Positions 47,291 through 57,375 of a stretch of 64,000 nt of DNA are shown here, in pieces (position 1 is the first letter of the stretch; every line of letters begins with the position of its first letter). The stretch spans positions 1,674,001 to 1,738,000 of the forward strand of contig NZ_JBBNAC010000001.1 in NCBI RefSeq assembly GCF_037996825.1, in the 5' to 3' direction. Under the pieces are notes generated by a model. The model was not told the DNA's origin. It saw only the letters and a program-made list of their open reading frames with translations, and did no database searches. A program made the position numbers and the translations under genes. This DNA is from Bdellovibrio sp. BCCA (GTDB lineage: Bacteria; Bdellovibrionota; Bdellovibrionia; Bdellovibrionales; Bdellovibrionaceae).

Positions 47291-48217
47291 TTAAAGACCT
47301 TTAAGTATATCGTTCAGTAATTGAATATGTTGCAGTGGGTGCTTACCAACATGGTCGATCATCATTTTTTTCGCGGCTTCCGCTTTAGGCACACTTTCAA
47401 ACGTGATCAGGCGATCTATGGCGTTCGCAGAAGAAACGAGAACTGCCAACGGATCTTGATCTTTTTCGCGCAAACCCTTGGGGCCGGCGCCATTGATCGT
47501 TTCTTCGTGCTGAGCGATGATATTGATCACAGTTTGATCAAAGTGTTTCTTATCCTGAACTTTTGTGGCGCCATCTGTAGGGTGTCTGTTCCAAACGGCG
47601 CGGTCCGCTTCACTCATAGTATCTAAAGGCTGATTGAGATTGAGCGAAGAGTTGTGGTGGCCGTAGTCGTGTAAGATAGCGCCCAAAGTAAGAAGCTGTG
47701 TTTTCTTTGGATCGCTAATTCCTAATTTCTGTGCCAGAGCGATTGAAAGTGTTGCGACAGTCACGCCATGATGGGCGATGTTTTTATCCGTATTTTCGAT
47801 ATTCATGATCGAGGACATGGCTTGGGCATTGCTCATGATAAAGTTCACGTACTTGCCAGCCGCATCCTTGGCGTAATTGTAGGATTCGACGTTGTCGGGA
47901 TTTTCAAAAACTTCTTCGGCGTTGTTTTGTTGGGAACCTTGAATGATTTCTGAACGAGTTTGAATGTCTTTGTTCGAAGAGTTGTCGTAAGCCGTCTCGA
48001 TATTTTTTTGCAGATAGCTGCGGTAGCTTGTTTCCTCGTCTGTAAGGATGTACATTTTGCGAAGTTTTTTGTCCTTAAGACGTTTGAGGCGTTCTCCCTC
48101 GAAACTGTCGCCGCGACGAAGGTAGAGAATCATCTTTTCGTTGATTTTAACGTAAGCGTTGAAGTCGATCTTTTGATCTCCGCGCAGGGTGCTTACGCGA
48201 ATAGAAACATAATCCAT
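47291..48217 (-). CDS. HD-GYP-family protein with GAGP in place of GYP (Bd1817-like)
   Basis: 308 residues. An N-terminal module (about 15-75, DFNAYVKINEKMILYLRRGDSF) precedes the HD-GYP domain. Likely metal ligands: H150 (AHHG), H183-D184 (ILHDYGHH), H212 (RHP), H237 (AQHEE) and an Asp near 268 (ANAIDRL). GYP reads NGAGPKG, so the active-site Tyr is absent. Length and residues match what I recall of Bdellovibrio Bd1817, whose structure shows a two-metal site. May still hydrolyse or bind c-di-GMP. Divergent (33 bp) from the HPt-like gene. Confidence 0.85.
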   Translation of the reverse strand: MDYVSIRVSTLRGDQKIDFNAYVKINEKMILYLRRGDSFEGERLKRLKDKKLRKMYILTDEETSYRSYLQKNIETAYDNSSNKDIQTRSEIIQGSQQNNAEEVFENPDNVESYNYAKDAAGKYVNFIMSNAQAMSSIMNIENTDKNIAHHGVTVATLSIALAQKLGISDPKKTQLLTLGAILHDYGHHNSSLNLNQPLDTMSEADRAVWNRHPTDGATKVQDKKHFDQTVINIIAQHEETINGAGPKGLREKDQDPLAVLVSSANAIDRLITFESVPKAEAAKKMMIDHVGKHPLQHIQLLNDILKGL

Positions 48218-48250
48218 TGCCTCTGTGTCCTTCGGTTGTTATCGTAAGTT

Positions 48251-48766
48251 ATGTCGATTGATAAAGAAATTGTAGAAGATTTTGTAAATGAGTCAAAGTC
48301 CTTAATTGAAGAGTTGATAGACCTTCTCGAAAGTATTGAAGGTGACTTTTCTCAGGTTCAAAAATTGGCTGATTACGGAAACAATGTCGATCGCATTATG
48401 GGGGGAGCAAAAAGTTTGGCGATGATGGCACCACCGGATCATGCTCTGCACATGATTTCAGACTACGCCGCTCTCTGTAAGGCGGTTGGATATAAGGCTT
48501 CTCAGATCAATGACAATGAACAATTTTACGATGTCTGCGTGGCTCTTCTTTTAGACGCCACAGAGACTTTAAGTGTTCTGCTTAACAACATCGAAAAGGA
48601 AGGAAAGGTTTTGAAAGAAACCATTCCTCAAGCCTTTATCGAACGCCTTCGTTGGGTGTCTAGTCAGTTCAGCGAAGCATACAGTATGAGTGTTGGCACA
48701 GGAACAGCCCCTCAAAAACTCAGACAGTCAGAAATCGACGATCTTTTGAAAAAGCTGGGCCTCTAA
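48251..48766 (+). CDS. HPt-like protein with FliM/CheZ-type C-terminal peptide
   Basis: 171 residues. The N-terminus (VEDFVNESKSLIEELIDLLESIE) and DRIMGGAKSLAMM (residues 47-59) match the CheA HPt pattern H-x-I-K-G-G-A-x-x-L, but the phospho-His is D47 and the Lys is M50. It ends QSEIDDLLKKLGL (159-171), like FliM (LSQAEIDALL) and CheZ (VDDLLDSLGF) peptides that bind CheY. So it may bind CheY-type regulators without phosphotransfer. Divergent from the HD-GYP gene. Assignment is my own pattern match. Confidence 0.6.
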   Translation: MSIDKEIVEDFVNESKSLIEELIDLLESIEGDFSQVQKLADYGNNVDRIMGGAKSLAMMAPPDHALHMISDYAALCKAVGYKASQINDNEQFYDVCVALLLDATETLSVLLNNIEKEGKVLKETIPQAFIERLRWVSSQFSEAYSMSVGTGTAPQKLRQSEIDDLLKKLGL

Positions 48767-54633: not shown

Positions 54634-55008
54634 ATGAAAAAAATGATTCTATCTACAATGATCGCGGTGATGGGTTTCTCTTCTCTTGGTCACGCTGCTT
54701 CGGATTTATTAGAATTTAAAATGGTGTATCGTGAATCTGCGGAAGAGTATGGAATTAAGGCGGACTCCAGTGATAGCGCTGTCGCTCGTCTTAATGTGAT
54801 CATCCAATACAACCAGGTGATTCCTAGCTACGCCAAAAAACAACTCGCGGAAATTATGAAAGGTCTTCATGAGATCGATCAATCTACTGAAGGTCGTATG
54901 TGCATCACACTCGGTATGGAATTGGGAGCGGGCAAATGCCGTGTTGTAAGAACGACGTACAAGAACTACATTCGTCAAATGGATAGAGTGGTTTTAGAAA
55001 CGCTCTAA
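54634..55008 (+). CDS. Small secreted protein of unknown function
   Basis: 124 residues. Signal peptide MKKMILSTMIAVMGFSSLGHA. Mature part mostly helical with a pair of cysteines (RMCITLG, GKCRVV) near the C-terminus. No family recognised. GAGGAA upstream. Overlaps the convergent HD-GYP-like gene by 4 bp. Confidence 0.6.
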   Translation: MKKMILSTMIAVMGFSSLGHAASDLLEFKMVYRESAEEYGIKADSSDSAVARLNVIIQYNQVIPSYAKKQLAEIMKGLHEIDQSTEGRMCITLGMELGAGKCRVVRTTYKNYIRQMDRVVLETL

Positions 55009-56384
55009 GTTTTCCATTTTTTAAAGACCTGAGTTGTTAAAACTAGGTCTAGCTCGCCATTTCCATTTAGGGCGGCTTCACGGAGTGTACTGATTGCCTG
55101 TGTTGCCGTCATAGCTTGTTGGCTGTCTTGAAGGGCCGTCATTTCATGAAAGCGGTAAGCAAGACCCATTAGTTTTCCCATATCAGAAATGTCTTCAGCC
55201 GTGAGCTTTTTGGGAAAGCCAGATCCGTCGCCGTTTTCTCGGTGCTGACCGATGGCATCTGAAATTTCTGGCGTTAAGGGGACTTTCTTTCCCTTCACCA
55301 TAATCACGGAGCGATCAGGGTAAAGAATGTATTCTGAAAGTTCTTCGTTGGTATAGTTCTTAGGATTTTTATCGCCCACAGAAGCAGGTAATTGCGCAAG
55401 GCCGATGTTATGTAAAAGCCCCGCCATCGCCGCACTTTCCCGTTTTTCGTGATTCCAACCCAAAAGTTGCGCAAAATAAGCGCCGTAAGCCGAAAGACAA
55501 ATGCAGTCATGGTAAAGAGAACGGGTGTTTCCCGTAAAGCGGAAGATCTCGTCAAAAATTTCTTGGGGGGAAAGATCCTTAGTTAGTTCAAAATCGGCTA
55601 CAATGTTTTTGCATTTATCGAAAATCAATTTTCCTTCTTGATAGTCCGTGCCCGCGCCGTTAAGAAACTGAGCCATGATTTCGTAGATCGCCCTTTTAGA
55701 GCGATGAAACTTTTCGGTCATTGAAACAGGCAGCTGAATATTTCTAAAACTCATTACAGTTCTCGCGTATTCAAAAAAAGCGTTCATCTGCGTTTTTTTG
55801 ATATACATCTGCTGCTTCAAAGTTTTGAATTTGTCTAAATGACGTTCGTCAACGCAGTCGCCGGTCTTTCGCAATAAAATGGAACGGTGATTGACGGGGA
55901 GGTGAACATACACATCAAAGTTGATGTTCATCTCTGCTTCCATATCTCGTAGATCTACAGGCATTAACGCTGTGATCGGGATATTATCGCCCTCCATTTC
56001 AATGGGAGCTAATTGCAAAACCATGTCGGAAATAAACTCGCGATCGAAGTTGATATGCATCACTTCATCGGCGCCATTTTTTTTAACGACGTCGAAATTA
56101 AGTGAACCTGCAGAAGCATGCAGAACGATGATGTGACAGTCAGGATAATTCATTTTGGTTGATTGAACCCACTCGTTGGTTTGAGCGGTTCCGTCTTGGC
56201 CATCGATCAGGGCAAGGATAGGAGAGAAGTTTGGTTCAGAGCTTTCAAGAATTTCGTCGATCGTGTGGAAGTGTTTAAGCTGGTACGGATAATACCCCTT
56301 CAGGATGACTTTGACGGCTTCCCAGAAGGAGTCTCGAGGACTCCCAATTAGAACGTCAACAGTCGGACCTGAAGTGGTTTTCAT
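55005..56384 (-). CDS. HD-GYP-like protein with degenerate metal site and receiver-like N-terminus
   Basis: 459 residues. Residues about 8-115 form a receiver-like fold without a clear acidic pocket. The module at about 145-210 (NFDVYVHLPVNHRSILLRKTGDC) recurs in the proteins at 4751 and 47291. The HD-GYP domain reads LLHNIGLAQLP near 324 (HD to HN), YPDRS instead of a KHP motif, and QHRENGDGSGFP near 378. Several ligands are lost, so catalysis is doubtful. It is 3 bp after cheX in the cheY-cheX operon, pointing to motility or chemotaxis. Confidence 0.75.
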   Translation of the reverse strand: MKTTSGPTVDVLIGSPRDSFWEAVKVILKGYYPYQLKHFHTIDEILESSEPNFSPILALIDGQDGTAQTNEWVQSTKMNYPDCHIIVLHASAGSLNFDVVKKNGADEVMHINFDREFISDMVLQLAPIEMEGDNIPITALMPVDLRDMEAEMNINFDVYVHLPVNHRSILLRKTGDCVDERHLDKFKTLKQQMYIKKTQMNAFFEYARTVMSFRNIQLPVSMTEKFHRSKRAIYEIMAQFLNGAGTDYQEGKLIFDKCKNIVADFELTKDLSPQEIFDEIFRFTGNTRSLYHDCICLSAYGAYFAQLLGWNHEKRESAAMAGLLHNIGLAQLPASVGDKNPKNYTNEELSEYILYPDRSVIMVKGKKVPLTPEISDAIGQHRENGDGSGFPKKLTAEDISDMGKLMGLAYRFHEMTALQDSQQAMTATQAISTLREAALNGNGELDLVLTTQVFKKWKT

Positions 56385-56387
56385 CGT

Positions 56388-56888
56388 CTAATGAACCGTA
56401 ATCTCCACATAGAAGGTGGAACCATTTGTTAAATTAAAGGGGATAACAAGAGTCGCCGCTTTATCCGCATGACTGATTTTAAAATCACCAGAAATCACAG
56501 TCGGGATGGCCATTTCAAAATTATAACCCAATTGATTCAACGTTGTTTTCGCTGAACCGTAGATCATATTCGTCATCTCACCAACGGCGTCTGAAACTTC
56601 ACCATTGATCGACGTGTGTTTTTCTCCAAGCATGTTTTCCAAAATGTGGAAAATGCTGTCCTTACCATAAGAGATCAAAAGGGTTCCCTTAAGAGGAGGA
56701 GCGACCATGCCCACCATGCCCGCAATTTCACCCTTCAAAACGAACTGTGGTTCGATGAAAGGTTTGCCGGGAGAGGCGTCGGTTTGTGCCATTGTTTTAA
56801 GTGTTTTAACAACTCCATCAACAAACGCATTGATAAGACGTTTGTCGAAAAGAGGATTTAAAGCTTCGACTTTTGGTGCTGCTGACAT
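56388..56888 (-). CDS. cheX: CheX-like CheY-P phosphatase
   Basis: 166 residues. The CheC/CheX/FliY-type motif E-x-x-N is visible in GEVSDAVGEMTNMIYGSAKTTL (near residues 96-117), where Glu and Asn dephosphorylate CheY-P. Fits CheX dimers. GGAG upstream. Lies 20 bp after cheY, so kinase output and its shut-off are co-expressed. Confidence 0.88.
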   Translation of the reverse strand: MSAAPKVEALNPLFDKRLINAFVDGVVKTLKTMAQTDASPGKPFIEPQFVLKGEIAGMVGMVAPPLKGTLLISYGKDSIFHILENMLGEKHTSINGEVSDAVGEMTNMIYGSAKTTLNQLGYNFEMAIPTVISGDFKISHADKAATLVIPFNLTNGSTFYVEITVH

Positions 56889-56908
56889 TGAATTCTCCTA
56901 GCGACTCT

Positions 56909-57334
56909 TTAAGAAGCTTTTGCTTGAGCAGCAGGGTTGTGTTTTGCCCAAACGCGTTCCATCTTGCCTTTGAGTGTTGCTGAATTAAATGGCTTCACCA
57001 CGTAATCAGAAACTCCGGCTTTAGCAGCTTCAAGAATGTGCTTTTGTTCAGACTCGGCAGTCACAAGCATAAAAGGAACAGACTTAAAACGAGGGTCCGC
57101 TTTGCATGCTTTCAAAAGGTCGATGCCTTGCATTCCTGGCATATTCCAGTCAGAAATTACAAAGCCATAAGGCTGGCCTGCATCATGAGCGGCCTGGATC
57201 ATAGGCAGGGCCGTTTTGCCATCATCGGCTTCCTCGACGTTGGTATAACCCAGCTCATTTAGCACTTTTTTAATGATTTTTCGCATAGTTGCGAAGTCAT
57301 CAACGACCAAAAACTTCGTATTTGTGGGAAACAT
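56909..57334 (-). CDS. CheY-like response regulator
   Basis: 141 residues from ATG 57334 (AGGAG 6 bp upstream). Single receiver domain: D12/D13 (VVDDF), phospho-acceptor D62 (ISDWNMPG), T92 (LVTAES), K114 (YVVKPF). Typical CheY with no output domain, plus a short Ala/Lys tail. First gene of cheY-cheX-HD-GYP-like; a sigma-28-like promoter lies upstream. Which signal it receives is not shown. Confidence 0.95.
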   Translation of the reverse strand: MFPTNTKFLVVDDFATMRKIIKKVLNELGYTNVEEADDGKTALPMIQAAHDAGQPYGFVISDWNMPGMQGIDLLKACKADPRFKSVPFMLVTAESEQKHILEAAKAGVSDYVVKPFNSATLKGKMERVWAKHNPAAQAKAS

Positions 57335-57375
57335 AATATCTCCTGAAAAGGTGAAAGCCTGTAAAATCCTCATGC

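Follow-up and report, generated by a model that had tools for sequence, protein, structure and literature searches.

The window analysed here, 64,000 nucleotides of Bdellovibrio sp. BCCA DNA, carries on its forward strand (48251-48766) an open reading frame for a protein of 171 amino acids, with its ATG at 48251 and its stop codon at 48764-48766, that is present in single copy in the 4.01-Mb genome. Its product, referred to below as the pseudo-HPt protein, has a body of the CheA-P1-type HPt kind (residues 5-146; 48263-48688), a disordered and variable linker (residues 147-158; 48689-48724) and a terminal peptide, QSEIDDLLKKLGL (residues 159-171; 48725-48763), whose likeness by sequence is to the CheY-binding C-terminus of CheZ and N-terminus of FliM. 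Within helix B of the body lies N44-x-x-D47-R48 (48380-48394), the codon of D47 being 48389-48391 and that of the amide three residues earlier 48380-48382. Divergently oriented, as had been noticed on first reading, is a gene for an HD-GYP protein (47291-48217, reverse strand), which proves to be the orthologue of Bd1817 (PDB 3TM8) and whose pairing with the pseudo-HPt gene is conserved across families. Only 33 bp (48218-48250) separate the two start codons, and with such close spacing the promoters must overlap coding sequence. Close divergent spacing (median 35 bp) is retained in most related loci, and an HD-GYP gene adjoins the pseudo-HPt gene in 63 loci, the neighbour cluster on which that count rests being a mixture of more than one HD-GYP subtype. 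About 6 kb away is a compact cheY-cheX-HD-GYP cluster on the reverse strand (55005-57373), comprising a CheY (56909-57373) that has the canonical active-site residues and whose true start is probably the internal Met of MFPTNTKFLVVDD, a CheX phosphatase (56388-56888) with an intact ExxN motif (GEMTNMIYG), and a second HD-GYP-type (HD_5) protein (55005-56384).

The protein is predicted with confidence to consist of a CheA-P1-type HPt domain from which a disordered linker leads to a terminal helix. An AlphaFold2 model built on 63 relatives (pLDDT 87.7, pTM 0.84) has body helices at residues 5-29, 38-57, 65-83, 90-112 and 127-146, mostly with pLDDT above 90, a fall to below 50 at 147-157, and a last helix at 159-168; the four helices of an HPt bundle, together with the fifth that P1 domains have, are accordingly all present in the predicted fold, and the first-pass annotation's assignment of an HPt fold can be sharpened to a five-helix one of the P1 type. 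CheA P1 domains are the top PDB matches (1I5N with Z 14.4 and rmsd 2.5 over 125 residues, then 2LP4, 3KYJ, 3KYI and 8C5V, the next row being at Z 12.1), and P1 in complex with CheY6 is among these top structures. Foldseek alone gives an E-value of only 0.08 with a probability of 1.00, its first four rows being P1 domains. The model of a further protein, a distant relative 37% identical to the window protein (pLDDT 83.9), again has P1 domains at the top with Z 14.7, two designed repeat proteins reaching Z 14.3. Independent agreement with the structure-based assignment comes from sequence profiles, hhalign against 20 CheA P1 domains of the same order giving a probability of 94.5 and E 8e-8, and 94.7 and E 6e-8 when distant members are added. 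Searches of Pfam, NCBIfam and PDB sequences with the single protein matched no curated family; a weak match to ATG17 is probably coiled-coil noise.

What has become of the P1 active site? In both hhalign alignments, with and without the distant members, D47 falls on CheA His48 and M50 on Lys51, as the first-pass annotation had it, and in that against the 20 P1 domains of the order S70 falls on Glu70, so that the active-site Glu is replaced as well as the His and the Lys. Among the 103 distinct family members compared, 102 have Asp at residue 47 and the remaining one has Glu; position 50 is Met or another residue but never Lys, and position 70 is Gly, Ser, Ala, Thr or Cys but never Glu. Neither the phospho-accepting His of a functional HPt nor the Lys51 and Glu70 network of P1 is to be found in the family, which has the marks of a pseudo-HPt class: an HPt fold that has lost its His and is conserved as such. 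On the established mechanism, and to judge from the aligned residues, phosphotransfer by the P1 route is excluded because Asp stands in place of His, and position 50 lacks the Lys and position 70 the Glu; the earlier view that the protein cannot pass phosphate is upheld by both the register and the conservation.

Loss is only part of the picture. Residue 44 is Asn or Gln in 98 of the 103 (Asn 35, Gln 63), and R48 and G51 are each kept in 100. An invariant acid at the His site with an amide on the same helix face is, as far as the sequences can tell, not what simple decay leaves. Eight members in which no tail can be recognised (L148, L150, L156, L159, L161, L163, L164 and L166), some of which may be truncated reading frames, all keep Q44, D47 and R48, which argues for constraint on this site whether or not the tail is present. 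Since N/Q44-x-x-D47-R48 is near-invariant and is retained even in such copies, its position on the receiver-docking face suggests that the body acts at the receiver, possibly in dephosphorylation. Four of the tail-less members (L161, L163, L164 and L166) form a subfamily retaining Q44-xx-D47-R48, and three of these (L163, L164 and L166) each occur as a second copy alongside another family member of the same genome. Another second copy, L167 (3823-4311, reverse strand), has Glu for D47 and has lost the amide with the tail kept, and its product is a possible tail-only variant with a dead body. One outlier, L067 (4676-5194, forward strand), retains the Asp and has Arg in place of N44, Leu in place of R48 and His in place of M50. 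D102, K77 and R132 were also considered as an active site, and are less likely candidates, being on helices C-E and off the receiver face of P1.

The alpha4-beta5-alpha5 face of CheY is the binding site of the FliM and CheZ peptides alike. In E. coli, CheZ closes with SQDQVDDLLDSLGF and FliM opens with MGDSILSQAEIDALL; the window genome's own FliM opens with MNQVLSQSEVDALL, and the tail of family f18 is QSSIDDLMSSLGL or near it. Seven of the 14 terminal residues of the pseudo-HPt protein are identical to those of the E. coli CheZ tail, whereas at least six identities occur in only 3 of 1536 C-termini otherwise unrelated, one of the three being CheZ itself, so that the resemblance exceeds chance. 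When the tail was turned into a degenerate DNA pattern, the pattern matched the 4-Mb genome once, at the pseudo-HPt gene, and its reversed control not at all. Among 18 degenerate matches to FliM/CheZ-type peptides, only those in the pseudo-HPt gene and in FliM belong to a clear gene and fall at one end of its protein. Most family members end in a CheZ/FliM-like peptide, which is strongly conserved after a poorly conserved linker; the likeness of the last 13 residues to these peptides, remarked on at the outset, thus stands far above background and is shared by relatives. Judged by sequence, the protein has the CheZ arrangement of a C-terminal CheY-binding peptide following a flexible linker. 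The tail is degenerate in family f17 and absent from some copies, and such loss or degradation in some lineages counts against regulation of CheY as the family's role. It would also be expected if the resemblance were fortuitous and the protein had some structural or regulatory function that does not involve CheY, a reading made highly improbable by the strength of the match and by the adjacency of cheY in f18.

A search of the order found relatives in 60 of 119 genomes, 59 of them genuine after removal of a CheA match in G110 (the matches in G110 and the second match in G084 were left out of presence counts as CheA proteins), and a profile search of the phylum found the family in 134 of 291 genomes, 133 of which have FliM. 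Within the order the gene is present in 59 of the 101 genomes with FliM and in none of the 18 without it; CheX is encoded in all 59 carriers versus 24 of the 42 other genomes with FliM, and CheA in 56 of the 59, none being detected in the other three. No CheZ exceeded the cut-off among the 119 genomes. Fisher p-values for the distribution are below 1e-5, and are descriptive only, as they ignore shared ancestry. The family is phylum-wide and almost confined to flagellated genomes.

The surroundings of the gene are most telling in f18, where the usual order in one gene row is HD-GYP, cheY, pseudo-HPt, cheX. In the 17 f18-type loci (L128-L143 and L148) cheY is directly upstream in every case, with gaps of 5-64 bp, and cheX is directly downstream in 13 and in the other four on the other side, beyond the Bd1817-type HD-GYP gene. 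The best match of the f18 CheY in the window genome is the CheY at 56909, with 52% identity (46% for the next paralogue), which marks it as the likely binding partner, and the CheX encoded beside it is a relative of the usual downstream neighbour in f18; both CheX proteins, that of the window and that of L129, match PF13690, with ExxN as GEMTN and GEICN respectively. The order in the window cluster is shuffled relative to f18, where the pseudo-HPt gene usually sits between cheY and cheX. In about 30 carriers, including all 20 of the genus, CheX is on the same contig within about 12 kb. The f18 linkage to cheY and cheX is strong support for CheY as the partner, and it is from the tail and this linkage that we infer CheY binding. 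Of the first-pass proposal of a CheY-binding scaffold or decoy, the CheY partner gains from the f18 linkage; the role of scaffold or decoy is not established.

The neighbours could be read otherwise. The protein might be an adaptor that presents CheY-P to CheX or to the Bd1817-type HD-GYP partner, joining chemotaxis to c-di-GMP signalling, and that the conserved neighbours are cheX and HD-GYP genes, with CheX encoded in every carrier of the order, is what it would lead one to expect; however, linkage may reflect only a shared pathway, and the idea of a contact with CheX or the HD-GYP protein seems improbable. Inhibition on the kinase side is very unlikely: a pseudo-P1 filling the site at which the kinase domain of CheA takes up P1, with the tail serving only to concentrate the protein near CheY, would be in keeping with the P1-like body and with the prevalence of CheA in carriers, but not with the three carriers in which CheA was undetected, nor with conserved gene partners that are cheY and cheX rather than cheA.

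The pseudo-HPt protein most likely arose from the P1 (HPt) domain of a CheA and serves to regulate CheY. The best explanation in outline, to which we assign a probability of roughly 0.42, has three components: tethering by the tail, P1-like docking and dephosphorylation of CheY-P. The flexible CheZ/FliM-type C-terminal peptide would tether CheY, probably phospho-CheY, and the HPt-like body would then dock with the face formed by helices A and B covering the active site of the receiver, in the manner of the CheA P1 domain. Docking of this kind is favoured because in the P1-CheY6 structure it is helices A and B that are turned towards the receiver, with His51 7.5 A from the acceptor Asp (PMC2817712). 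The docked body would take no phosphate, since Asp now occupies the place of His48, Met that of Lys51 and a small residue that of Glu70; D47 and the near-invariant N/Q44, one turn apart, would instead probably position a water and speed dephosphorylation of CheY-P.

The pose and the catalysis that we infer deserve separate scrutiny. The CheY-P phosphatases known so far work by inserting an acid together with an amide (PMC3510030, PMC3035606), both being required in the ExxN of CheX and the DxxxQ of CheZ (PMC3510030), and an acid alone can serve, RapH Q47E remaining active and Spo0E perhaps using an acid (PMC3035606). Against this, Asn and Gln exchange freely at position 44 and yet RapH Q47N is dead (PMC3035606), for which reason a strictly catalytic amide there is doubtful. 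Further, the amide precedes the acid, the reverse of the order in CheX, CheZ and NarX; D47 and R48 could be structural; and, with a CheX of intact ExxN encoded nearby, the need for another phosphatase is not obvious. The Asn/Gln exchange would suit binding better than catalysis, and so would fit a protein acting only as decoy or buffer for CheY-P, its tail competing with FliM and its body with CheA P1. The tail core QSEIDDLL is almost that of the genome's own FliM (QSEVDALL), a His-less HPt competitor is known in plant AHP6 (PMC6963811), and what the His-less Hpt domains of CheA proteins do has been stated to be undetermined (PMC10782961). Nevertheless, an invariant Asp with an amide at -3 and an Arg at +1, retained where the tail is missing, goes beyond what a passive surface would require, and competition of this sort is possible though on the unlikely side. 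We prefer dephosphorylation of CheY-P by the acid-amide pair D47/N44 to a pure decoy, though by a small margin only.

The handling of CheY-P in the Bdellovibrio order has no description in the open-access literature searched, and a search on the gene beside Bd1817 gave nothing relevant. A His-less HPt is here a phylum-wide single-domain family with CheY as its named likely partner, which makes the role of such a domain directly testable. Should it prove to be a phosphatase, one fold would both donate phosphate to CheY and remove it, a phosphate-passing domain having been turned into a phosphate-removing one.

HPt domains without the phospho-His are already known in CheA3 and ChpA (as extra Hpt domains), in FimL, which has Gln at the site (PMC3019171), and in Arabidopsis AHP6. 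The present family is like them in fold; unlike them it has the invariant Asp and the CheZ/FliM-type tail, a combination reported for none of them in the literature searched. No description of the family was found in that open-access literature, which is not proof of novelty. With CheA P1 (1I5N, 3KYJ) it shares the five-helix fold, the Gly after the active site, the receiver-facing helices A and B and the profile match, and it differs in the three replaced residues and in being stand-alone and tailed, with no kinase domains. CheX (of the CheC/CheX/FliY class) is a genetic neighbour with acid and amide likewise three residues apart, but its fold is unrelated and their order is reversed. A diverged CheZ is rejected: both models match CheA P1, and no member passes the cut-off of the CheZ profile (PF04344), to which 6 of 63 members have weak matches (best E 0.038). 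The CheZ fold is also absent from the structure matches listed, an absence that would not suffice by itself. Nor is there a conserved DxxxQ, the order on helix B being N/Q-x-x-D, and the fold is that of HPt/P1 and not the CheZ hairpin. The parallels with CheZ are a helical body, a flexible linker, a very similar C-terminal peptide (QxxIDDLLxxLG) and an acid and an amide on one helix, so that the proposed chemistry would be parallel and the fold different. Tentatively, and at rather less than even odds, the family may be a new structural class of CheY-P phosphatase, in which the His of an HPt has become Asp with an amide one turn away and a tail of the CheZ type has been acquired convergently.
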